A stretch of 33,864 nt of DNA from a virus. Both the position numbers and the translations under genes were made by a program. Numbering within the stretch: the stretch's first letter is position 1; each line of letters starts with the position of its first letter. Below the pieces are notes generated by a model. It was not told the DNA's origin. It saw only the letters and a program-made list of their open reading frames with translations, and did no database searches. This document shows positions 3,760-33,198 of the stretch, one piece after another. The stretch lies in IMG/VR virus record IMGVR_UViG_3300004151_000297, positions 1 to 33,864 of that record; one strand, 5' to 3'.

Positions 3760-4001
3760 TGAACCACCCCAATCAATATAAATTTTTGGTTGTTAGCATA
3801 AGGAAGGAGCACAACCTCACGCCCAACGTCCTCCTCCGTCAGCACCACACAGCTTTTAATTTGCGATTCCACAAGAATAATCTTTTCACCAACACGAATT
3901 TTAATGTTTTCCACATCCAAAACAGTGCCAAACATAGGCGAATAATCCCTGTTATTTTCCCTCTGCTTTAAAAGCATTGCAAGTTCCGTTATACCGCTCA
4001 C
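3756..4001 (-). CDS. XkdR-like baseplate protein (DUF2577)
   Basis: The open frame extends upstream to 4028, but the best start is GTG at 4001. It is preceded by a run of seven G about 5 nt upstream, and the protein then begins 'MSGITELAMLLKQR', matching the usual N-terminus of DUF2577 proteins. This gives 81 residues. The extra upstream codons fall inside a terminator hairpin (4011-4050) and are unlikely to be coding. Family members are small OB-like baseplate proteins upstream of DUF2634 genes. In PBSX-type tails this gene directly follows xkdQ; here a 2.5-kb SIR2 gene has been inserted between them. Confidence 0.8.
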   Translation of the reverse strand: MSGITELAMLLKQRENNRDYSPMFGTVLDVENIKIRVGEKIILVESQIKSCVVLTEEDVGREVVLLPYANNQKFILIGVVQ

Positions 4002-4010
4002 AAAATCCCC

Positions 4011-4050
4011 CCCAAACAAAAAAGACACATACCGTTAGGTTTGTGTCTTT
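4011..4050 (-). terminator. Intrinsic terminator after the SIR2-NTPase gene
   Basis: A perfect 9-bp stem (4021-4029 with 4042-4050, AAAGACACA/TGTGTCTTT) carries an inner ACC/GGT extension. Read on the minus strand it is followed by TTTGTTT, making a U-rich tail. It lies about 85 bp after the SIR2 gene stop and just before the ribosome site of the XkdR-like gene, so it separates the inserted gene from the downstream baseplate genes. Confidence 0.72.
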
Positions 4051-4134
4051 GATCTATTTTATTGTCTTTCTTATAATACTCATAATGGCTGGTTCAATAT
4101 TATGCAACAAAATGAATTAGCAGTTTGTTTACAT

Positions 4135-6492
4135 TTATTCTCTATTATAATATTCTGATTGTATTGTCTCTAGTTTATTTTTTAATCTTTTTGCTTTATC
4201 TACTATAGAACAATCATATGTGCCATTTTCAATAACATATTTGCAAACACTAATGATTACATTATAGCTGTTTCTTCTCATTCTTCCTCCACGCAATTCA
4301 TTATTTAAATATCTCTGGTTTCTGTTATAATAGTTTGAAAAAGCAGCTTCATACCCTCTTTGTATACATTCAATATGTTTTTCTTTGTTGTCGCTTTCAT
4401 CATCTAAAAGACTACAAACATAGCCACAAATTAAAGAAATTGTTAATGAAGATTTCAATTTCATATTATAATCGCCATCAAAGTATGCTTTTTTAGCATA
4501 TTGATATGCCTCATATAATTTGTTAATATCATCAGATGATATTCGATAAATACTTTTTGCTCTTTGTAGCCAATAATCTGGACTATCACATAACAGTTCT
4601 TCTAATGAATTATAAACTTCAAAAATAAGGCTTCCAGCACCACTTTTACCACCAAATATTTGGTTTAATGTATCAAATAAAATTACATTTATATATATTC
4701 TTTCTCGAAAAAGATCATCTTTCAATTTTATTACAATATACTTAATTATATCTATAATATCATTTTTTTTGTTGTTTTGTACTAGCTCTAGAATGACCAT
4801 TTTACTATTGTATATAATTTTTGTTGACGAATGACTTGCTTTTTCTTCTACTTCAGTGGGAACTTCTTCTACTAGTATTTGAAAGTTATTAAGGAAACCA
4901 TTAATATAGTCTGGCATAATATCTAATGCAATTGCATCAGAATAATAAATTTTATCATTTACAGCTAAAAGAAATAATAGAACTTGTTCCGCAAAATTTG
5001 CTTTATTTGAAAATTCATTTAGCATTGGCACTCTTATTTTTTGTTCTTTAGATAGTTTTTGTAAATAGTCTAAGTTTGTTTGAAATTTATTTCTTCTGAT
5101 CAATCCATATCTGTCAATAGTATAATTAAATTTTTCAAGTTCATATTCATCAAAATAACTTTGTAATTCAACTAACCCCGCATCTAACGCTCCAATTATA
5201 TAGTTATCATTGCTATTGGTTGATATTAAAATTTTATTTTTATTTTCTTTAATAATATCTTTGCTAGCACTAATTAATTTGTACACATCTGGAGAAATAG
5301 AATTACTATCAAATATAAACAGTGAATTGTTTTTCTGTAATAATTCTTTTATATAATAACTATCTAATTGTATTTGTGAAGTGAAAAAGTACGTTTCAAA
5401 TCTATTAAAATATTCATATATTGTAGCCAGCAAGTACGTTTTACCACTAAAGCGTCTACCTTTTAATACTACACAATCATATAATTCAAGTTGTTCTGAT
5501 ATATTTTGCATTACACTTCTTGCAATATGCATTTCAATCTTATAAAATACATTGTTTTTAGAATCATATATACTTCTTCCTGAAAAACACTCAATTGCCC
5601 TACTATTTTCATCAATTTTTTCAATTTTTATATTTGCATATTTATTTCCCTTATAATTATGGTCTGACAGACTGTTATAATATTGCTCAATAAATTTCTT
5701 ATAAAACAAATCAAAGTCGTTTACAATAATAACTTCATTGACCCCATGAGATAATAGTAACTTTTGTTGTTTGTAAGTCGGTTTTTCTTTTCTAATTACT
5801 GCCCTAATATTGTTGCTATTTTCAGGTAGTTGTTCAAATATAAACTTAAGATCAGGCTCATTACACATACTACATCCAATAAATATAATATTGTTTTTCA
5901 TGTAATCATTTGTAATATTATTTAAAAAATCCAAATTATGTTTACTTTTAATACTATTAATGTATTGAGAAGTTCTAAAAACAATATTTTCTTCATCATA
6001 GTTTGTTTCATATTTAGCATCACCATGTATTTTGTATAAATATTTAGAAGCATTATAATTCTTCTTTAATTTTTTATATGGTAATATTGGTGTAAATTCC
6101 CCTGTGTTTTCTATTCCATCATCTACATTAATGGTGTATGCATATGGCCAGTTAATCTTTAAAAATGTTTTTTTATAGTCCTCAATAGTTACGTTAATAA
6201 AATAATTACTTAAAAAATTACTTTGCTCCTTTTCTGTTACACTTTCAAAGAAAAGATCAGATGTTTCGTTGAAATTATCACTTAATTCATCTTTTGTTAT
6301 TTTTCCATCACATGAATTTAAAATAATTTTATTCATAATTTCTGTGGCTTGTTTACCATCTGGAACTTTTTTTCTAAAAGCTCTACACCCTACAGTAAAA
6401 CCAGAACCAAAAAATGGGATTAGCTGTCTGCTAATTGCAAGTGACACTAATTGTTTTATTCCTTCATTTTGGTCTAATATCTTTATATTCAT
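4135..6492 (-). CDS. SIR2-domain / P-loop NTPase (STAND-like) protein, candidate anti-phage effector
   Basis: This 785-residue protein is not a phage structural protein. The N-terminal 270 residues form a SIR2-like fold: 'FFGSGFT' (28-33) as the nucleotide-binding loop, 'TINVDD' (120-125) with the usual catalytic Asn at 122, 'KIHGD' (154-158) with His156, and 'IFIGCSMCNEPD' (203-214). Residues 345-352 (GRRFSGKT) are a Walker A motif, 'LFIFDS' (391-396) a likely Walker B, and 'ILISTNSN' (421-428) a sensor-like strand. The C-terminal third is helical and TPR-like. SIR2 plus NTPase plus repeat sensor is the architecture of known defence ATPases that destroy NAD on phage infection (SIR2-STAND, Avs-like). 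The exact subfamily is unknown to me. It is visibly AT-richer than its neighbours, and has its own promoter (6575-6603), ribosome site (GGGGGAG) and terminator (4011-4050), so it looks like a moron inserted between xkdQ-like and xkdR-like genes. Confidence 0.82.
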   Translation of the reverse strand: MNIKILDQNEGIKQLVSLAISRQLIPFFGSGFTVGCRAFRKKVPDGKQATEIMNKIILNSCDGKITKDELSDNFNETSDLFFESVTEKEQSNFLSNYFINVTIEDYKKTFLKINWPYAYTINVDDGIENTGEFTPILPYKKLKKNYNASKYLYKIHGDAKYETNYDEENIVFRTSQYINSIKSKHNLDFLNNITNDYMKNNIIFIGCSMCNEPDLKFIFEQLPENSNNIRAVIRKEKPTYKQQKLLLSHGVNEVIIVNDFDLFYKKFIEQYYNSLSDHNYKGNKYANIKIEKIDENSRAIECFSGRSIYDSKNNVFYKIEMHIARSVMQNISEQLELYDCVVLKGRRFSGKTYLLATIYEYFNRFETYFFTSQIQLDSYYIKELLQKNNSLFIFDSNSISPDVYKLISASKDIIKENKNKILISTNSNDNYIIGALDAGLVELQSYFDEYELEKFNYTIDRYGLIRRNKFQTNLDYLQKLSKEQKIRVPMLNEFSNKANFAEQVLLFLLAVNDKIYYSDAIALDIMPDYINGFLNNFQILVEEVPTEVEEKASHSSTKIIYNSKMVILELVQNNKKNDIIDIIKYIVIKLKDDLFRERIYINVILFDTLNQIFGGKSGAGSLIFEVYNSLEELLCDSPDYWLQRAKSIYRISSDDINKLYEAYQYAKKAYFDGDYNMKLKSSLTISLICGYVCSLLDDESDNKEKHIECIQRGYEAAFSNYYNRNQRYLNNELRGGRMRRNSYNVIISVCKYVIENGTYDCSIVDKAKRLKNKLETIQSEYYNRE

Positions 6493-17131: not shown

Positions 17132-18793
17132 TTAAAGCCCCCAATCATCACTAATAATTTTTGCATTTATGTCAGTAGAAATATTAAGCATTGCCCTAAC
17201 GTGGGAAGTTGCAAAGGCAACGAGTGAATCTACTTTGTTTTTTGCTTTGGATTTATCAATCTTAACGTTTCCGGCAGGATCAGTTGTTTCAATAGCATTA
17301 TTTATAGCAGCACGAAGCACAGGATTGCCACCATGAATAATTTTTCCTTGAATAATCAGTTTTTTCATATCCTTTATAGGCTCACTCATGGTTGCATATC
17401 CCTGCCGAACCTCAACACAGGTAAGTCCTTCATTGCTCAAATTGTTTGCAAATTGAGTAGCATTCCAAGGGTCATAGCAAACCTCTTTAACCTTATATTT
17501 TTTATGTAATTCCAAAACATAGCTTTGAATCCAATCGTAATCAATAACTTCACCGGGTGTTGCAGTCATACAACCCTGCCGAACCCACGTGGAATAAGGT
17601 AAACCGTCCTTGCGTTCTTTTTCAAGCATAGTCTCCTCAGGTATAAAGCTATGATTTATAATAGCATAATAACCATCAGGCAACGCAAATTCAGCATTAA
17701 CGCTTGCAGTGTCCTCGGTTGATGCAAGGTCAACACCAATGGTGCAAGGTCTTCCGGTTAAATCAGGCAGTTCCAAATCGCATTCATCCCATTTTTTAAG
17801 GTCAACAAATCTTGTTTCAGCACTTACCCAAATATTAAGATGCTTGCATAAAAAATTATTATAAGCACTTGGAATATCCTTCGCTGTATTTGCCTTTGTG
17901 CGTAAATCATCAATATTAACGCTAACACCTAAGTTGGGATTTGCCTTATACCATGTCCGCTCATCAAAAGGATCGTCTCCCTCATCAGGCTGTGCAATAT
18001 ATGCAAAAAAGGTTTCATCATCTTTAACGCCCCTTAAAACTTTTCTTGCATATTCATAAACCTCATAGCAAATTCCATTCCGATTATTGCCGGCAGTGGT
18101 AACCATCCAAATAACAGGCTGTGTCCTGGCACCCGTTGCAGTGTCCAACACATCAAATACATCACGTGTCTTGTGAGCATGGAGCTCATCAATCAATGCA
18201 AAATGAATATTAAGTCCGTCAAGGGTAACTGCATCAGCGGAAAGCGCTTCAAACTTACTGTTTGTGCTTGGCATATTTAAGTTATTTGTCAGCACATCTA
18301 TGTAACGTCTAAGGCTTGGTGATGCTTTAACCATTCGCCTTGCCTCATCAAAAATAATTCTTGCTTGGTCTCTCTTTGTTGCAGCAGAATACACTTCCGC
18401 ACCCTGTTCACCATCAAGGCTCATTGCATCAAGTCCGGTTCCTGCAGCCTTAGTGGATTTTCCGTTTTTCCTTGCCACCTGCTCATATGCCTTTTTAAAA
18501 CGTCTTAATCCTGTCCCTTTATGTTGCCAACCAAAAACAGAACCATTACAAAAACATTGCCAAGGTTCAAGTATTATCGGTTTCCCTGCCCATTCCCCTT
18601 TTGAATGATTGCACAAATTAAAGAAATTAATATGTGTTTCAGCAAGCTCAACATTAAAATAATACGGAAAGTCTTTTCTTTGCGACCTTTTAAGGTCATT
18701 CAAATGTCTTTTGCAGGCGAGCATAACATCTTCACCAACAATATAATTGCCGGAAACAACCTCTTTTGCATATTTGGTAGTTCTATCGTCCAC
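17132..18793 (-). CDS. Terminase large subunit
   Basis: This 553-residue packaging ATPase and nuclease has its Walker A-like motif in 'QVARKNGKSTKAAG' and Walker B in 'HFALIDELHAH'. The C-terminal nuclease domain begins at 'PCTIGVDLASTEDTASV', with Asp of the RNase H-like fold. The middle 'GKPIILEPWQCFCNGSVFGW' is the typical family motif. It overlaps terS by 11 bp. Length is normal for HK97-type TerL. Confidence 0.96.
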   Translation of the reverse strand: MDDRTTKYAKEVVSGNYIVGEDVMLACKRHLNDLKRSQRKDFPYYFNVELAETHINFFNLCNHSKGEWAGKPIILEPWQCFCNGSVFGWQHKGTGLRRFKKAYEQVARKNGKSTKAAGTGLDAMSLDGEQGAEVYSAATKRDQARIIFDEARRMVKASPSLRRYIDVLTNNLNMPSTNSKFEALSADAVTLDGLNIHFALIDELHAHKTRDVFDVLDTATGARTQPVIWMVTTAGNNRNGICYEVYEYARKVLRGVKDDETFFAYIAQPDEGDDPFDERTWYKANPNLGVSVNIDDLRTKANTAKDIPSAYNNFLCKHLNIWVSAETRFVDLKKWDECDLELPDLTGRPCTIGVDLASTEDTASVNAEFALPDGYYAIINHSFIPEETMLEKERKDGLPYSTWVRQGCMTATPGEVIDYDWIQSYVLELHKKYKVKEVCYDPWNATQFANNLSNEGLTCVEVRQGYATMSEPIKDMKKLIIQGKIIHGGNPVLRAAINNAIETTDPAGNVKIDKSKAKNKVDSLVAFATSHVRAMLNISTDINAKIISDDWGL

Positions 18794-19274
18794 TTGCTTT
18801 CACTCCTTTTATAAGTGTAAGGAAAGGATCTTCCGTTTTTTCCTCATCATCAATACTTAAATTTCGTCTTGAACTTGGTGTAAGTCCAAACTCACGCCCA
18901 TATCTTAATAAATCGTCCATAGCCTTATTAGCAATACCAACCTCAGGGCGAGCCAGTATATTCCCCTTGTCGGATGTGTATGTCAGTTCTTCATATGCCC
19001 TAAGTTTTTTCTCTGCTGTAAGCCACCTGTCATATGCCTGGCAATAAGAACTAAGCATAGTTATATCGCATTTTGTAAGCAAAGTTGCCTTATGCAGTAT
19101 CGGAGCAATCCGCTTCCATTCCTTTTTTGCGTGTTTGCCCAAATATGGCGGTGGCTCCGGAACATCATTATCAACAGGCGGTTTAAATTCTTTATTATTA
19201 ACCTTTCGCTTGCCGGGGTTTCCCTGCAAAGCATTCAAAGCGGAAGGCTTCGCAGCCGGCCCACGTGAACCCAT
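18783..19274 (-). CDS. Terminase small subunit (P27 family)
   Basis: This 163-residue protein has the P27 family start 'MGSRGPAAKPSALNALQGNPGKR' and 'PEPPPYLGKHAKKEWKRIAPIL'. It recognises the packaging site and recruits TerL. A GAGAGGTG ribosome site precedes ATG 19274. It is the first gene of the uninterrupted head operon: upstream there is a terminator (19347-19374) and the second SIR2 gene. I saw only a weak promoter candidate for it, so late transcription is probably activator-dependent or reads through. Confidence 0.92.
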   Translation of the reverse strand: MGSRGPAAKPSALNALQGNPGKRKVNNKEFKPPVDNDVPEPPPYLGKHAKKEWKRIAPILHKATLLTKCDITMLSSYCQAYDRWLTAEKKLRAYEELTYTSDKGNILARPEVGIANKAMDDLLRYGREFGLTPSSRRNLSIDDEEKTEDPFLTLIKGVKASGR

Positions 19275-19640: not shown

Positions 19641-19707
19641 GGCACATGGTTGATACACTATAACTTTTTAGTTGTACGTAAATCAATCCTCTGTGCCTTT
19701 TTAATTT
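19623..19707 (+). ncRNA. Candidate structured small RNA, antisense to the SIR2 mRNA 3' end
   Basis: From the promoter's expected start, the RNA can fold into three stacked helices: GGCACA/TGTGCC (19641-19646 with 19692-19697), GTTGAT/ATCAAT (19649-19654 with 19682-19687) and a 7-bp apical stem with a TTTT loop (19659-19665 with 1970-19676 written in full as 19670-19676). A U-tract (TTTTT at 19698-19702) follows the outer stem, so the RNA ends at about 19703-19707. Only a five-codon ORF (ATG 19646) follows a ribosome-like AAAGGTGG; a longer frame using TTG 19649 exists, but runs on as antisense of SIR2. The transcript overlaps the last few bases of SIR2 and its 3' untranslated region in antisense. 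No known RNA family is recognised. Confidence 0.45.
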
Positions 19708-21296
19708 TCAAATTTTCTATACCACATGTAACAAGCTGCTTTTTTAAATGGGGAACAATTGATAGACTCCGGATACTCGTTCAATAACTTTTTCAATATA
19801 TAATTGCATTGATCTATGGTTATTGTATTCTTGTAAAGAGCATATATGATATCATTACAAATCCCAGTAAATTTACTATTTGGTGGATTTGTTCTGCTTT
19901 TTAATGTATCAAACCTGTTTTCTAATACTTCAACATTGCTACATATTTCACCTTTCGCTCTCAACTCTTTAATAAAGAAATTTTTTCGTCCTTCGTAATT
20001 AGATTTAAACTGTTTGCCACATTTATCATAGGGTATTGTTATTTTATTCTTTATGAGGAAAACCGGAGTATATTCTGTTGACTTAATACATTTGTTATCA
20101 TACCAACTTTGTGCAAATAAATTGTAATCAAAAGGTTCTTCTAAAAGAGCCTTTTTTATTATATCCTCATTCTTGTATATAGTAACTGATTTATTAATAT
20201 TTTCCACAGTCTGTTTATTGCCAATATAAAGAGCTACTTCGTCTGCATTTGCCAAATCAATTTCTTGAGCGAATATTTTTTTTTCTCCCTTTGCTTCTTT
20301 GCTTATAATATCCGCAACCATTGTTTTATATTTTCTTAATTCATAAGCAGTTGCAGAGGGTTTTAACTTATCTATATTATTATATATCTCCATAAAATTA
20401 TCCGTTTTAATTGTAGTTAAAGTTATAGCTTTTCCCGTACCTTCATCAGCAAACTGCTTTTCGCCTTCAATCAGCTCTTTTTGTCCCTTCTCATATATGA
20501 CGAGAATAATATATTTTTTTATTTCTTGCAAAATATCGTTATCAAAACTATTAACAAAATCCGTCATTATTTTCTTTATATTTTCATCCTCCAATGAATA
20601 TCCAAGAAAAATTATCGGAAAATCAATCAATGCATTAATTAATTTAGAAGATACGAGTTTTAAAGAGTTATCAAATTTTTCATAGTCTTTTTCACAAAAA
20701 ATAATTCCGTTAGGGTCGGTAGCGCAACCATGAATTTTATATATTTCTCCATATCCGTTATTTGTGCGAAAATAATATTTATTTTGACTTTCATATACTT
20801 TAGAATCTACGAAAATTTCTTGTTGGAGAAACAAATCAAAGTTTGTTGTAAATACCATACTGATTTTTTGACTTACTCTTTTTAGTGTATCGATTTCTTC
20901 TGCTCTTTCCTTATTTATTTTATATGTAAAAAGCGTTTTAGCCACAAGCATTTTAAAATAGTCTATACCATCATTAATACACCGATTATTTTCTTCTTCG
21001 GTAAATAATTTATTAACATCAATTTCTTCATTTTCTATTTTACTTAAAAGTCGTTCCTGCAAAAATGATGCCATTTGTTGATTTAGAATTCCATTTGTGA
21101 TATTTGGATTTTGACTTTTAAGAGAATGTTGTTTTGCAGCAAATGCAGGTTTGGAAATTTCAATTTTCTCGCGAAGTATATCTAATAATTGATCCCAAGA
21201 TGGATAGTCTTCCAAATACCTGTTAGATAAACCTGAACCTATAAAAAGCACAGGTAATCTTTTGCTTTCAATAATTCTATCTAATGCTTTACTCAT
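19701..21296 (-). CDS. SIR2-domain protein with unknown C-terminal half, candidate anti-phage effector
   Basis: This 531-residue protein begins with a SIR2-like domain: 'LFIGSGLSNRYLEDYPSW' (17-34), 'VFTTNFD' (148-154) with catalytic Asn152, 'YKIHGCATD' (186-194) with His189, and 'IIFLGYSLEDENI' (228-240). All key NAD-hydrolase positions are present. The domain ends near residue 310. Residues 330-531 match nothing I recognise and may sense the infection trigger: no SLOG domain (as in Thoeris ThsA), no P-loop, no transmembrane segment. It lies between the HNH endonuclease and terS with a 332-bp upstream gap and its own terminator, so it resembles a moron. Start ATG 21296 has CGAGGTGAATTTAG before it. 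Known SIR2 defence proteins deplete NAD on phage infection; here that is inferred. Confidence 0.8.
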   Translation of the reverse strand: MSKALDRIIESKRLPVLFIGSGLSNRYLEDYPSWDQLLDILREKIEISKPAFAAKQHSLKSQNPNITNGILNQQMASFLQERLLSKIENEEIDVNKLFTEEENNRCINDGIDYFKMLVAKTLFTYKINKERAEEIDTLKRVSQKISMVFTTNFDLFLQQEIFVDSKVYESQNKYYFRTNNGYGEIYKIHGCATDPNGIIFCEKDYEKFDNSLKLVSSKLINALIDFPIIFLGYSLEDENIKKIMTDFVNSFDNDILQEIKKYIILVIYEKGQKELIEGEKQFADEGTGKAITLTTIKTDNFMEIYNNIDKLKPSATAYELRKYKTMVADIISKEAKGEKKIFAQEIDLANADEVALYIGNKQTVENINKSVTIYKNEDIIKKALLEEPFDYNLFAQSWYDNKCIKSTEYTPVFLIKNKITIPYDKCGKQFKSNYEGRKNFFIKELRAKGEICSNVEVLENRFDTLKSRTNPPNSKFTGICNDIIYALYKNTITIDQCNYILKKLLNEYPESINCSPFKKAACYMWYRKFEN

Positions 21297-21628: not shown

Positions 21629-21979
21629 TTAATATTTACCAAAACCACCATCTTCTGTCGCTGTCTTGGTATCATGGCACCGCTTGCATAGTGATTGATG
21701 ATTATTTGGATTCCAAAATAACATCATATTTCCTTTGTGTGGAACAATATGGTCAACAACAGTTGCAAGAGTATGAAATCCTTTTTCTAAACATTTGATA
21801 CAAAATGGATTTTTAGTTAAATAAACAATTCTGTACTTACGCCATTTTGCATCATAACCTCGTTCAGCAGAATTTCCTCTTTGGATATCATAATTTTTAG
21901 TATGTATTTCACAATAAGTATTTTTGGATAGGTTTTTACACCCAATTTGCTTACATGGTCTTAATGGTTTTGATGGCAC
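21629..21979 (-). CDS. HNH endonuclease
   Basis: This 116-residue protein has two N-terminal Cys pairs ('CKQIGCKNLSKNTYCEIH'), then 'CIKCLEKG', 'ATVVDHIVPHKGN' and 'NNHQSLCKRCHDTKT'. These are the zinc ligands and the His-Asn-His catalytic core. In cos-type phages this enzyme works with the terminase to cut packaging sites. Start is GTG 21979 with AGAGGTG upstream. It normally sits next to terS; here a SIR2 gene lies between. Confidence 0.93.
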   Translation of the reverse strand: MPSKPLRPCKQIGCKNLSKNTYCEIHTKNYDIQRGNSAERGYDAKWRKYRIVYLTKNPFCIKCLEKGFHTLATVVDHIVPHKGNMMLFWNPNNHQSLCKRCHDTKTATEDGGFGKY

Positions 21980-21995
21980 GAAAACACCTCTAATC

Positions 21996-22110
21996 TGTCA
22001 ACATAATACAGGGAGTGTTGACAATACAAAAAGCATTAAAATAAGGCTTTATATATAGCCTTTCTTAACTTTATTTTAATTGTCAGTAACAAAAAAAAAT
22101 TATGTTGACA
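21996..22110. repeat. Nested inverted-repeat array with three TGTTGACA copies
   Basis: TGTCAACATAAT (21996-22007) and ATTATGTTGACA (22099-22110) are perfect 12-bp inverse ends. Inside lie another TGTTGACA (22016-22023), TGACAAT/ATTGTCA (22019-22025 with 22079-22085), ATTAAAATAA/TTATTTTAAT (22035-22044 with 22071-22080) and a central AAGGCT/AGCCTT stem (22043-22048 with 22057-22062). The array fills the gap between HNH and the tyrosine recombinase gene. It may be a recombinase-binding, packaging or regulatory site. The central stem followed by a T-rich run could also act as a terminator. Confidence 0.7.
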
Positions 22111-22115
22111 CGAAT

Positions 22116-22661
22116 TTAAATTTTAAAATTAACCATAGCCTTTTTAATTGACTCTCTTGTAATGCCGATATAGACTAAAGTTTCTCTTTGACTCGTGTGA
22201 TTAAACCATACCATAAGTGTAGCAATATCATTTGTTTGCTTATAAAAATGATACCCACACGTTTTACGCATCGTATGAGTACCAATATTATCAAGCCCAT
22301 ATTTTTTAGCCGTCTGATTTAAAACCTTATATGCCCACGACCTATCAATAGCTTTGTACTCGTTATTTTCTAACGGAATAAGCGCCTCATGTGGGTCTCT
22401 GCCATCACAATAATTGTTTAGAGCTCTTAATACGTCAGAGTTAAATGCAACTGAAACTTCTTTTCCTGTCTTTGGTTGTCTGAATGTGGTTTCTTTTTTA
22501 TTTTTAACATCTCCAACCCGAAGTAATAATATTTCACTTATACGAAGTCCCAAACTAATCCCAACTAAAAACATAATATAGAACTTCTCATTACGCTCAT
22601 ATAAATCTTTTTTAATCTTATTTAGAATATCTTTGTCTCTGATAGGTTCAACAAAATTCAT
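22116..22661 (-). CDS. Small tyrosine recombinase, catalytic domain only
   Basis: This 181-residue protein (from ATG 22661; TTG 22667 is an alternative) has a complete tyrosine recombinase active site: Arg40 in 'SLGLRISEIL', Lys64 in 'RQPKTGKE', His129 and Arg132 in 'THTMRKTCGYHF', His155 in 'WFNHTSQRETL' and Tyr164 in 'TLVYIGITR'. The usual N-terminal arm- and core-binding domains are absent. Short recombinases of this type occur near the terminase in Firmicute phages; their job is not settled. The phage's integrase is the serine enzyme at the right end, so this is a second recombinase. It abuts an inverted-repeat array and follows a small gene without gap. Confidence 0.9.
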   Translation of the reverse strand: MNFVEPIRDKDILNKIKKDLYERNEKFYIMFLVGISLGLRISEILLLRVGDVKNKKETTFRQPKTGKEVSVAFNSDVLRALNNYCDGRDPHEALIPLENNEYKAIDRSWAYKVLNQTAKKYGLDNIGTHTMRKTCGYHFYKQTNDIATLMVWFNHTSQRETLVYIGITRESIKKAMVNFKI

Positions 22662-22667
22662 AATCAA

Positions 22668-22868
22668 TCACCACTTTTTATTTTCTATTTTTGAAAGCAC
22701 CGCCCTAATTGCATCCATATCCGGAGGAACATGTTTTTTAATAATTTTAACTTTACCGGCTTTACCTGTCTTATCAGCAATCATTTCTTTTTCTTCGTAT
22801 TCATACCCTGTAGCACGTTTTAAAAGTGCCTCTTTTACTTTTTCTTCATCAAAATTCTTATTTACCAT
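22668..22868 (-). CDS. Small terminase-like helical protein
   Basis: The start chosen is ATG 22868, with GAGGTG upstream; GTG 22877 is possible. The 66 residues include 'VKEALLKRATGYEYEEKEM' and a C-terminal 'HVPPDMDAIRAVLSKIENKKW'. The layout 'a..kAtGy.yee......k...k..pPd..Ai...L' resembles the end of some small terminase subunits, although a full P27-type terS is present downstream. It may be a fragment or an accessory DNA-binding protein. Confidence 0.45.
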   Translation of the reverse strand: MVNKNFDEEKVKEALLKRATGYEYEEKEMIADKTGKAGKVKIIKKHVPPDMDAIRAVLSKIENKKW

Positions 22869-22900
22869 TGCCAACACCTCATTTTTTGTGTAAAATGATA

Positions 22901-22928: not shown

Positions 22929-22955
22929 CATGGCAGGTGTTCTCTGCTGTGAACA

Positions 22956-22990
22956 AACGGAGAGTGTTAGTAGCACTCTCCGTTTTGTTA
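22956..22990. terminator. Bidirectional-looking hairpin terminator after the methyltransferase gene
   Basis: A perfect 11-bp stem (22956-22966 with 22974-22984, AACGGAGAGTG/CACTCTCCGTT) lies immediately after the methyltransferase stop. The T-run is better on the plus strand (TTTTGTTATTT) than on the minus strand (TTTGTTC), so termination of the minus-strand operon may be partial. Confidence 0.65.
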
Positions 22991-22991
22991 T

Positions 22992-24206
22992 TTACAATTC
23001 TGTATATTCTGTTTTTTCGCCATTTCTTACTAAAATTGCAATATCCCCGGTTTGTTTTATGTACCGCTTTACAATTACATCACAAAACTTTTCTTCGAAC
23101 TCAACTATTCTGCAAACTCGGTTGGTTTGCTCGCAAGCCATAAGAGTCGAACCGCTGCCTCCGAATATATCAAGAACTATATCACCAGGCTTGCTTGAAT
23201 TACTAATAGGATAAGCACAAAGTGGTATCGGCTTCATTGTTGGATGCTCTACGCTCTTGGTTGGTCTGTCAAACTCCCAAACTGTGGATTGGCTTCTGTC
23301 TGAATACCATTTATGAGGAGCTCCATTTTTCCAGCCATAAAGCACAGGCTCATGCTGCCAATGATAATCAGACCGTCCCATCACAAATGATTGTTTAACC
23401 CACACGCAAGTGCTCGAATGATGGAACCCGACATCCTTAAACGCACTTATAAAATTACATCCTTCTGTTTCAGAATGAAATATATAAATGCTTGCGCCGT
23501 CAGCCATTACGCAATTAACATTGGAAAATGCAGTATGTAAAAACTTATAAAAATTATCATCGGACATTTTATCGTTTTTAATCTTGCCGGCTTCACCCTC
23601 ATAGTCAGCATTGTAAGGTGGGTCTGTAACAACAAGCTGTGCCTTCTCATTATCTAATAATAATTTTAATGTTTCCGGCAAAGTGCTATCACCGCAAATT
23701 AACTTGTGATTTCCAAGCAGCCATATATCACCCTGCTGTGTTATAGGTGTTTCAGGCATAGCCTCATCAACATCAAAATCATCATCAAAGACTTCATTGT
23801 CCTCAAATTCTGCAATAAGCTTGTCAATTTCAGAATCACTAAAGCCGGTTAATTCCATATCAACATCTGCAAGTTTCAATTCTTCAAGCAAAGCAGAAAG
23901 CTTTTCATTATCCCAATCACCACTTATTTTATTAAGTGCAATATTAAGTGCCTTTTCATCATCAATGCTTAAATTAACAACAGAAACATCAAGCTCCGTT
24001 GCTCCCTGGTCAATTAAAATTTTTAACCGCTGATGTCCGCCGACAACATTGCCAGTTGCTTCATTCCAAACAATAGGTTCAACACATCCGAATTTTTCAA
24101 GAGACCGTTCTAATTTTTCATATTCTGCATCACCCTTTTGCAAATCCTTCCTTGGATTATATGCAGCAGCACTTAATTGTGATATTGATACGTTTTTTAT
24201 TTTCAA
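22992..24206 (-). CDS. ParB-like domain fused to DNA methyltransferase
   Basis: The N-terminal 100 residues form a ParB/Srx-like domain ('NPRKDLQKGDAEYEKLERSL', then 'NVVGGHQRLKILID' with the ParB box). Residues after 190 are a DNA N6-adenine or N4-cytosine methyltransferase: 'LVVTDPPYN' is motif IV and 'VLDIFGGSGSTLMACEQ' is motif I, in the beta-class order. The target site is unknown. No partner restriction enzyme is visible, so it probably protects phage DNA or tunes expression. Start was set at TTG 24206 because AGAGGGTG lies 6 nt upstream; GTG 24215 is possible. The ParB-MTase fusion is common in temperate Gram-positive phages. Confidence 0.92.
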   Translation of the reverse strand: MKIKNVSISQLSAAAYNPRKDLQKGDAEYEKLERSLEKFGCVEPIVWNEATGNVVGGHQRLKILIDQGATELDVSVVNLSIDDEKALNIALNKISGDWDNEKLSALLEELKLADVDMELTGFSDSEIDKLIAEFEDNEVFDDDFDVDEAMPETPITQQGDIWLLGNHKLICGDSTLPETLKLLLDNEKAQLVVTDPPYNADYEGEAGKIKNDKMSDDNFYKFLHTAFSNVNCVMADGASIYIFHSETEGCNFISAFKDVGFHHSSTCVWVKQSFVMGRSDYHWQHEPVLYGWKNGAPHKWYSDRSQSTVWEFDRPTKSVEHPTMKPIPLCAYPISNSSKPGDIVLDIFGGSGSTLMACEQTNRVCRIVEFEEKFCDVIVKRYIKQTGDIAILVRNGEKTEYTEL

Positions 24207-24219
24207 ATCAATCACCCTC

Positions 24220-24441: not shown

Positions 24442-25230
24442 CTAATTATTTAATAATCCTAATGATTTTCCATCCGAAGTTACAATAATAGAAGGATAAA
24501 AAATGGTAAAGTAAAAAATGCCAACATAATATTTATCATTTGTAAACCATTTGGTGGTTGTAGGAGCATCTAAATTTCTATACCCATTTTCTAACAAAAG
24601 CAATTCGTAATTACGAAGGAGTTTAGCATTTTTTAGTATGTCAGCAGAAGTTACAGTCTCAACTTCTAAATTATATTGATATAAATGATTACTATTTTCT
24701 TCTTCTAACGTCTCATATGTATTACATCCAGTTGATTCCAGCGAAATAACCTCAGGATATTTCTCATAATATTTTAAGTTTTTTTGTTCAATTCCAGAAA
24801 CTGTTGATATATTAATATTTACAGTCTGTGTTTCGTCGTTCCATTCCACATTAGCACCAACACTCTGCATTATAAATCTTAATGGAACTAAGGTTCGATC
24901 ATTAATTATCATTGGTGGAACATCTAGTTCAACATCAAGCCCATATAATTTAGCTGTTTTATTATCAATTTCTAGTTGTATATAATTATAACAAGCAGCT
25001 GCTTCTATTGTTTGGCTTTCTTCATCCCAATTAATATAAGAGGCACCGAGTTCTTCAAATACTTTTCTAAACGGTACCATAACCCTATCATTAATGATAG
25101 TTGGCTCTACATCGAATTGTATTTTTTCACCGTTCAAAAATACTTTTACACTTTCTTGTGCTTTAACAATAACGAGATTTGATAAAATGATATTAATAAC
25201 TAAAAAAAATAAAATAACTTTTCTAAACAA
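24442..25230 (-). CDS. Secreted protein with copper amine oxidase-like stalk domain
   Basis: The start chosen is TTG 25230 (GGAG 8 nt upstream); GTG 25239 is possible. A signal peptide runs to about residue 24 ('LSNLVIVKAQE'). Two repeats follow of the stalk domain: 'VEPTIINDRVMVPFRKVFEELGA' (about 40-65) and 'PPMIINDRTLVPLRFIMQSVGA' (about 105-127), each ending 'W.deeTQt'. This Cu_amine_oxidN1 domain is a wall or surface module in Clostridia with no oxidase activity. The C-terminal 120 residues are unrecognised and have no catalytic motif I know. It has its own perfect promoter and strong terminator, so it looks like a lysogenic-conversion gene. Confidence 0.8.
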   Translation of the reverse strand: MFRKVILFFLVINIILSNLVIVKAQESVKVFLNGEKIQFDVEPTIINDRVMVPFRKVFEELGASYINWDEESQTIEAAACYNYIQLEIDNKTAKLYGLDVELDVPPMIINDRTLVPLRFIMQSVGANVEWNDETQTVNINISTVSGIEQKNLKYYEKYPEVISLESTGCNTYETLEEENSNHLYQYNLEVETVTSADILKNAKLLRNYELLLLENGYRNLDAPTTTKWFTNDKYYVGIFYFTIFYPSIIVTSDGKSLGLLNN

Positions 25231-25328
25231 GATTTCCACTCCATTTCACAATATTTTTTTGATATTAATTAATGGATATCTCATAAGTAAAATAAACATC
25301 CTACCTCAACCATTAACTTATATTGGGA

Positions 25329-31660: not shown

Positions 31661-31690
31661 AAACACCATCGGTAATACCGAGGTTGTTTC
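31661..31690 (+). terminator. Hairpin after the lipoprotein gene
   Basis: TCGGTA-A-TACCGA (31669-31681) is a perfect 13-nt palindrome extended by AAACACC and GGTTGTTT into a longer stem, ending in TTT. It lies between the lipoprotein stop and the integrase ribosome site. Terminator or integrase operator. Confidence 0.5.
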
Positions 31691-31704
31691 CAAAGGTGAA
31701 TCTT

Positions 31705-33198
31705 ATGGATAAAGTTGCAATATATCTACGCAAATCAAGGGCAGAAGAACAGGGTGAGGACATAGGCGAAACCCTTTCCCGGCACAAATCAACCTTGCTT
31801 GATTTTGCTAAAAAAAATAAATTGAATATCATAAAAATATATGAGGAGGTTGTAAGTGGCGAAAGCCTCTTTGCACGTCCTCAAATGTTGGAGCTCCTGC
31901 AGGCAATTGAGGAAAATATGTATGATGCGGTTCTTTGCATGGATATTGACCGCCTTGGGCGTGGAAATATGAAAGACCAGGGAACAATTCTGCAAACATT
32001 TAAAGCTGCAAACACTTTGATAATAACTCCTCGCAAGGTTTATGACCTTGATAATGACTTAGACGAACAATACAGCGAATTTGAAGCGCTTATGGCACGT
32101 AATGAATATAAGTCAATCAGAAGGCGTATGCAAAATGGAAGAACAAAATCAATTCAGGAAGGCTGCTATGTTGCAAATGCACCCTTTGGTTATGTTGGCG
32201 CAACCGTTAATAAAAAACCAACCCTTGAGATATATGAATCCGAAGCAAAATATGTCCGAATGATTTATGATATGTATGTTAATCAAGGAATCGGCACTTA
32301 TACGATTGCAAGTACATTAAACGCTATGGGCGTAAACGGCAAAAGAGGTGGACTTTTAAGCCGAACAACAGTTAGAACTATAATTTCAAATCCGGTTTAT
32401 ACAGGGAAAATCGTGTGGAACAGAACAAAACATTTAAAAAAGAAAACTACTACCGATAAGCATAAAACAATATATAATGATAAGGCTATTTGGATTTTAT
32501 CTGATGGATTGCATCCTGCAATAATTGATGAGGAAACCTTTAATAAAGCTCAAGATATAAGAATAGGCAGAGGACATCCCCCAAGCAATAAAGGTATTTT
32601 GGAAAATCCTCTTGCAGGCTTGATTTATTGCGCAAACTGTGGGCAACTTATGCAGCGTGCAATTCCAAGGCATAAAAATGATACATTCCGTATTTTATGT
32701 GTAAAAAAAGATTGTGTCCGGGGTAATAGGTTAGATTTGGTTGAGAGCGAAATTCTAAGAATTTTAGAAGTACGTCTTAAGGAATTTGAGTTTCAAAATT
32801 CTGAAAAATCAAATGATTCAACAATTGATTTAACATCAAGCCAAATCGAAAAAATAAATAATGAACTCAAAAAAATTGACAATCAAAAAAATAAGCTTTA
32901 TGATTTATTGGAACAGGGTGTTTATACAATAGATATATTTACCGAAAGAAGTAATGCGTTAGCAAATAAAAAAACAAAGCTTGAAGCTGCAATGAATAAA
33001 ATCGTAAAAAACAAAAAGGATGAAAGTAAAAAATCCCCAATCATCCCTCGTTTAAAATATGTTTTAGAAAACTATTGGCAAAGCAATGCCGGGGAAAGAA
33101 ACAAAATGCTTAAAGATGTTGTAAAATTCTGTGTTTATAATAAAACAAAAGACCAGTGGGGCAACGTTTTTGATATAAAAGTGTTTATTGATGTCTAA
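31705..33198 (+). CDS. Large serine recombinase integrase
   Basis: The start is ATG 31705 (AAAGGTG upstream; the open frame begins at 31684). This 497-residue integrase has the catalytic Ser11 in 'YLRKSRAEEQG' and the resolvase fold up to about residue 150 ('DRLGRGNMKDQGTIL'). A recombinase domain follows ('PFGYVGATVNKKPTLEI', 'NPVYTGKIVWNR'), then a zinc ribbon ('GLIYCANCGQLM', later 'CVKKDC') and a coiled coil ('QIEKINNELKKIDNQKNKLYDLL'). It integrates the phage at a specific attachment site; excision needs a directionality factor, not seen here. It ends one codon before the interrupted host gene. Confidence 0.96.
   Translation: MDKVAIYLRKSRAEEQGEDIGETLSRHKSTLLDFAKKNKLNIIKIYEEVVSGESLFARPQMLELLQAIEENMYDAVLCMDIDRLGRGNMKDQGTILQTFKAANTLIITPRKVYDLDNDLDEQYSEFEALMARNEYKSIRRRMQNGRTKSIQEGCYVANAPFGYVGATVNKKPTLEIYESEAKYVRMIYDMYVNQGIGTYTIASTLNAMGVNGKRGGLLSRTTVRTIISNPVYTGKIVWNRTKHLKKKTTTDKHKTIYNDKAIWILSDGLHPAIIDEETFNKAQDIRIGRGHPPSNKGILENPLAGLIYCANCGQLMQRAIPRHKNDTFRILCVKKDCVRGNRLDLVESEILRILEVRLKEFEFQNSEKSNDSTIDLTSSQIEKINNELKKIDNQKNKLYDLLEQGVYTIDIFTERSNALANKKTKLEAAMNKIVKNKKDESKKSPIIPRLKYVLENYWQSNAGERNKMLKDVVKFCVYNKTKDQWGNVFDIKVFIDV

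Follow-up and report, generated by a model that had tools for sequence, protein, structure and literature searches.

A miniature tyrosine recombinase of Gram-positive phages and the adjacent two-part array that is very probably its recombination site

The stretch of viral DNA analysed here (hereafter the window) comprises 33,864 nucleotides of the IMG/VR record IMGVR_UViG_3300004151_000297. On its minus strand, a gene coding for a tyrosine recombinase of 183 amino acids (22116..22667; Pfam Phage_integrase 7e-20, phrog_216 1.7e-51), whose start codon is likely the ATG at codon 3, is separated from the gene of an HNH endonuclease (21629..21979, minus strand; Pfam HNH 3e-7, phrog_144 7e-36) by a gap that holds a 115-bp array of inverted repeats (21995-22111). 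The HNH gene lies directly downstream of the core of this array, and between it and the small subunit of the terminase (P27/Terminase_4; 18783..19274, minus strand; Pfam 2e-27) there is a SIR2-domain gene, a candidate for defence cargo (19701..21296, minus strand; Pfam SIR2_2 9e-20), which also matched the PADLOC models PDC-S25 (a candidate, 3e-85) and ThsA (2e-16). The large subunit of the terminase is encoded at 17132..18793 (minus strand; Pfam TerL_nuclease 3e-63). A serine integrase (31684..33198, plus strand; Pfam Recombinase and Resolvase, phrog_95 5e-103) is also encoded in the window, and it is presumably by this enzyme that the phage integrates. Directly upstream of the recombinase gene, an ORF of 69 amino acids (22668-22877, minus strand) with a weak likeness to terminase small subunits (phrog_309, 7e-9) occupies the position that an ArpU-type regulator has in other phages.

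The array consists of two sites in opposite order. The core site, 30 bp long and on the minus strand (21995-22024; TTGTCAACA-CTCCCTGTATT-ATGTTGACAG), is built of a C arm, an 11-bp centre and a D arm, in such a way that it has the dif-like form TTGTCAACA-N11-ATGTTGACAG; there is a single copy of it in the 33,864-bp record, and its ACA-N11-ATG geometry is also found in relatives. The accessory site (22079-22111, minus strand), 87 bp upstream of the core, carries the arms of the core in inverted order around an unrelated centre, with a D' arm (GTGTCAACAT, 22102-22111, minus strand) and a degenerate C' arm (TACTGACAA, about 22079-22088, minus strand). Midway between both sites is a short stem (AAGGCTTTATATATAGCCTT, AAGGCT..AGCCTT; 22043-22062, strand not assigned), possibly a terminator or a site for an architectural protein, and a mid-segment inverted repeat like this one is visible in several relatives; a search for known RNA families gave no match in the window. 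Read in gene direction, the order is thus the D' half-site, the weak C' half-site, a middle of around 54 bp with the stem, and the 30-bp core. The initial annotation had listed a 12-bp outer inverted pair (21996-22007 and 22099-22110), three TGTTGACA motifs (at 21996, 22016 and 22103) and a nested stem, all of which were found. Nevertheless, four half-sites (C, D, D' and C') describe the array better than three motifs, two of the TGTTGACA copies being the arms of the core and the third the outer arm of the accessory site, with the fourth half-site degenerate.

Scored as a core plus an inverted accessory site, the array reached a value of 30, against a maximum of 27 in 4000 dinucleotide-preserving shuffles, and no other position of the window scored at least 28 on either strand. 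The second-best score, 27 near 3865-4165, is within chance, and no second core was detected in the window. The motif TGTTGACA alone is weaker evidence, with 5 matches in the window for 1.4 expected.

The recombinase is a catalytic domain only, as the initial annotation had described it: the Phage_integrase domain stands alone in the 183 amino acids, and there is no core-binding domain. Its catalytic residues R42, K66, H131, R134, H157 and Y166 are intact and conserved, the R-K-HxxR-H/W-Y residues being invariant in 12 and in 52 aligned homologues, and 145 of 146 distinct homologues retain all six, a count that carries a bias at two of the catalytic positions from those loci that were retrieved via the GTHxxRKT motif. 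An AF2 model (pLDDT 92.5) has the fold of the catalytic domain, and the nearest solved folds in a structure comparison were XerA (Z 17.8), XerH (16.0) and Cre (about 15). The protein scored 54 bits with the XerD model TIGR02225, which has a cut-off of 330, and 28.7 bits with the integron integrase model TIGR02249, with a curated cut-off of 265, so that it belongs neither to the Xer equivalog nor to the IntI subfamily.

The presence of the array at other loci was studied in two large sets of homologues fetched by protein profile, which contained 146 distinct recombinases with enough downstream sequence. An array scoring at least 28 was found within 290 bp downstream in 44 of the 146, compared with 0 of 730 shuffles and 1 of 146 in the upstream control, and 27 more recombinases had an array scoring at least 29 at 0.6-2.3 kb downstream, with other genes intervening. 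The initial annotation had made its proposal depend on the array being kept where the recombinase is kept, and strict-score arrays stand beside 71 of the 146 distinct recombinases, the nearest relative included, with weaker versions beside more, so that this condition does not overturn the proposal. In about half of the homologues, the adjoining 3.5 kb holds no strict-score array; some of these are probably too divergent for detection and others truly devoid of it. The distance from accessory site to core is exactly 84 bp, about eight helical turns, in 31 of the 44 strict cases within 290 bp, and 87 bp in four, among them the window. This geometry is common to phages of Bacillus, Streptococcus, Clostridioides, Lachnospiraceae and Acetoanaerobium, and to the Streptococcus satellite Javan552.

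In the closest relative, an IMG/VR sequence (L001) whose recombinase is 82% identical, the array is kept, and its two outer arms have changed in concert (TGTAAACATAAT ... ATTATGTTTACA). The exact core motif of the window was matched in only one IMG/VR relative. When a common-core pattern was used for scanning, one match per contig stretch was found among the stretches listed, and in all 57 exact cores with at least 3.6 kb of upstream sequence a recombinase was encoded upstream, 53 of them detected by motif and four by tblastn. As a separate observation, the SIR2-domain gene is missing from the corresponding place in L001.

The co-variation of the arms was measured in 27 arrays with distinct arms by comparing each array's own pairing with permuted ones. 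The D arm matched its own accessory D arm in 5.63 of 7 bases (3.64 permuted), the C arm its own accessory C arm in 5.22 of 6 (3.06 permuted), and the C arm the complement of D in 4.85 of 6 (3.13 permuted), with P<=2e-4 in the three cases. The arms co-vary, and therefore all of them track one protein specificity. The left inner arm was closer to C than to D (P 6e-4), the outer arm was closer to D without reaching significance (P 0.06), and the left and right sites had unrelated centres (0.39 against 0.38 permuted). These arm resemblances, together with the unrelated centres, point to one recombining core and one accessory site.

The module is also found outside ordinary phage genomes. In the annotated phages examined it adjoins the terminase genes, it is consistently located next to ArpU and the late leader, and phage-plasmids retain it in the phage position. 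The satellite Javan552 keeps both recombinase and array, although it encodes a full-length integrase separately, at the opposite end. In two groups of true plasmids the core lies upstream of the gene for the recombinase homologue: on Bacillus badius pPM8 (8.2 kb) a second palindrome accompanies a perfect core of 30 bp, and the Geobacillus RepE plasmids pBt40 and pGARCT have a 29-bp core, while neither core nor array was found beside the more distant plasmid homologues of pCD-WTSI1, pLlaUC109IV and pDMEA1. By analogy, a plasmid recombinase with a single adjacent site would have the look of a multimer-resolution system, and cer, psi, TnpI and Cre are the established basis for such a reading.

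The conserved geometry, the co-varying arms, the linkage of core and recombinase in 57 of 57 cases and the preservation of the catalytic residues in 145 of 146 homologues make it very probable that the recombinase has its own recombination site in the array, and the earlier suggestion that it is the target of this enzyme is strongly supported by sequence comparison. As read from the aligned loci, this site is a core of 28-30 bp with an accessory site in inverted order about 84 bp away, with an unrelated centre. We give a probability of roughly 0.7 to the reading in which recombinase and array belong together as a self-contained module, the 183-aa enzyme having its cognate site next to its gene, and exchange takes place at the core between genomes or copies. 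Recombinase dimers would bind the core and the accessory site, bending of the spacer would put the synapse under the control of the accessory dimer, and strands would be exchanged at the core alone, between two cores on different or tandemly joined phage genomes. Since each genome has a single core, the reaction would at first convert multimers into monomers and back, or else link the genomes of two co-infecting phages in a joint molecule, and over evolution the core may act as the joint where the downstream cargo slot gets swapped.

The interconversion of multimers and monomers is the most likely outcome, and multimer resolution appears plausible from the architecture, a single site per replicon with adjacent accessory sequence, and from the carriage on plasmids. 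The centre AATATAAGAT is conserved across genera beyond the need of a pure resolution site, which counts against the resolution reading. Cassette swapping is, in the reading that we prefer, a by-product or a second role. The excision of the adjacent cassette, also suggested in the initial annotation, was not supported, since each record carries a single core and the cargo is not bordered by a second one. Many Gram-positive phages would then carry a miniature recombinase beside its own two-part recognition site, through which their genomes can probably be opened and resealed at a single defined position, beside a slot for defence genes, and a family annotated as an integrase of unclear role in temperate phages, satellites and plasmids gains a defined DNA target of simple geometry. 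If the core is recombined, this would explain the second recombinase that these phages have beside their integrase, and would provide a handle on phage genome multimers in Firmicutes and a predictable slot for the gain and loss of defence genes.

Several known systems share part of this design. The tyrosine recombinase TnpI of Tn4430 is encoded next to an internal resolution site of around 116 bp with a core and accessory motifs, all bound by the same enzyme. In the TnpI site the accessory motifs are two direct repeats next to an inverted core, whereas the phage motifs are an inverted pair with an unrelated centre; moreover, the phage enzyme is around 100 aa shorter and is found in a phage setting, with no transposase. 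With Xer/dif and the plasmid sites cer and psi the phage core shares its dimensions (28-30 bp, two inverted arms of around 11 bp and a centre of 6-8 bp), and XerA and XerH are the nearest folds, but the phage recombinase lacks the core-binding domain, is encoded beside its site and has no role in the host chromosome. In cer and psi, accessory DNA is added for directionality (PMC5357621); in the phage array, this part holds additional half-sites for the recombinase instead of ArgR/PepA sites. Cre/lox of phage P1 is likewise a phage-encoded tyrosine recombinase with a single site, where it resolves genome dimers (PMC8138268), but a core-binding domain is part of Cre, lox is not accompanied by an accessory site, and the phages that carry the present recombinase are mostly integrating ones.

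Two phage proteins also resemble the present one. In the Bacillus thuringiensis prophage phIS3501, a second integrase, p22, is numbered next to the ArpU-family gene p21, and its role is called unclear (PMC3335513). In the Tyroviruses, gp50 likewise adjoins an inverted-repeat site, of 11-6-11 form, but it is a different recombinase, with an N-terminal integrase domain, and is located in the structural module (PMC9703825). The accessible parts of both accounts contain no accessory site, spacing rule or cassette analysis (PMC3335513, PMC9703825), and no description of a two-unit array or a spacing rule was found in the literature searched.

The DNA downstream of the core was compared among phages of the Bacillus cereus group. 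There, homology ends at the right edge of the core, in the D arm, and resumes 0.04-2.4 kb further on, at a block resembling a late promoter. The genes in this slot are interchangeable, one nearly identical array being found with 11 different neighbours, and several match defence models (SIR2, a TIR or nucleoside deoxyribosyltransferase-like effector, FRG, DUF2971 and a restriction-type helicase). The association of alignment columns with the cassette was flat upstream (0.42, 0.41, 0.31), 0.47 at position +3, three bases from the core centre, 0.97 at the core centre and 0.92 beyond it. In pairs with the same cassette and a diverged array, the centre differed in 1.2% of 86 pairs and position +3 in 43%; in pairs with the same array and a different cassette, the centre differed in 23.5% of 179 pairs and position +3 in 5.6%. 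These cassette pairs are not independent, the independent centre types are few and the B. cereus group dominates the data. Three loci (L039, L040 and L067) have identical upstream 89 bp (identity 1.00), yet three centres and three cassettes. The centre travels with the cassette and the upstream sequence does not, so the breakpoints of the cassette swaps map within the core, with the left junction at the boundary between C arm and centre. A tyrosine recombinase would exchange strands at that very junction, and the data fit a crossover there.

These data give some support to cassette exchange, as distinct from excision, at the core in Bacillus phages. That such exchange is the actual function, with the recombinase inserting or swapping cargo at the core like an integron or a moron-capture platform of phages, is possible but not the likelier case. 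It would account for homology stopping exactly at the D arm, for the one array with its 11 neighbours, for the centre being shared in 98.8% of the same-cassette pairs despite diverged arrays, and for the defence-like cargo. However, the cassette ends just as sharply on its right side, within the late-promoter element, where there is no core site, so recombination at conserved linkers is also a possible route, and homologous recombination between such linkers would yield much of the pattern; the small number of independent centre types weighs in the same direction. An insertion of the cassette by the recombinase at both ends was rejected on account of that right boundary. The B. cereus group has three discrete core centres, TATAAG, TAGAAC and TTAAAC (as in the cores of L022, L023 and L065), which could be exchange-compatibility classes. 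Downstream of the cassette slot, the loci L021-L049 conserve a noncoding block of around 370 bp resembling a late promoter and leader (AAGTGGCAGAGTCGTGACCGCTTTTTGGCAG), and other Bacillus loci (L189, L193, L202, L203 and others) have a second variable slot of 0.6-2.9 kb between recombinase and array, with a nucleoside hydrolase, a hydrolase, FRG and other host-type genes.

A more far-reaching version, in which phages of Gram-positive bacteria possess their own equivalent of the integron, seems doubtful; here a minimal tyrosine recombinase would act on an attC-like inverted site of two units, and co-infecting phages would trade cassettes of anti-phage defence genes through it. In attC, two simple sites with inverted arms stand antiparallel to each other, their central spacers are different and unequal, the middle is variable, and the whole can fold as one hairpin (PMC2727003); the phage array shares this layout. 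Exchange could then be that of a single strand, at the boundary between inner arm and centre or on the folded strand. By contrast with integrons, the phage system has neither a canonical integron integrase nor cassette arrays, its double-stranded core is itself palindromic, and cassettes in the Bacillus slot are bounded by a core on the left side only.

It is somewhat less probable still that the recombinase is a DNA-binding regulator which uses the array, at the early-late boundary, as its operator or for looping, as with MrpR of SPbeta. The constant spacing of eight helical turns would suit looping, the place beside ArpU and the late leader is conserved, and the structures of MrpR and SroF, repressors with the recombinase fold, resemble the model (Z about 12). 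Against this, MrpR has lost crucial catalytic residues (PMC10516654) and the phage recombinase keeps all six, as do nearly all of its homologues, and an operator has no need of a dif-like core with a crossover-type centre of 6-8 bp.

A role only at the RNA level, with the recombinase transcript forming a terminator or a leader hairpin here, would agree with the strong folding of the window array as RNA (z -5.0) and with the nested order D'-C'...C-D, in which arm co-variation fits a hairpin as well; this is very unlikely, as the fold z is only -0.9 to -3.7 in eight relatives, a hairpin would not require C to match the complement of D with a constant 30-bp layout, and the site lies upstream of the gene on true plasmids. 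FimB and FimE are also catalytic-domain-only enzymes, the recombinase gave weak NCBIfam matches to tyrosine-type invertases, and the two sites are inverted, but an invertible switch in which both sites recombine and the middle of around 54 bp inverts has little chance of being correct, since left and right centres are unrelated and 109 of 109 Bacillus arrays have their middle the same way round, none being reversed. FimB-type proteins did not appear among the structure matches, an absence that carries no information on kinship. Equally improbable is an attP for chromosomal integration by a second integrase, for although the core resembles putative attP sites next to tyrosine recombinases in Tyroviruses (PMC9703825), the window has its serine integrase, Javan552 its separate one, and the module adjoins terminase genes in the annotated phages examined.

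Further upstream of the recombinase in the window, a ParB-like N-terminal domain is fused to an N6/N4 DNA methyltransferase (22992-24215, minus strand), a gene that L001 also has, and a strong terminator-like hairpin of 14 pairs (22955-22985, plus strand) lies between it and the small gene preceding the recombinase. The early region also encodes a protein with a domain like the N-terminal one of copper amine oxidases (24442-25239, minus strand; 8e-34), an unusual cargo for a phage.
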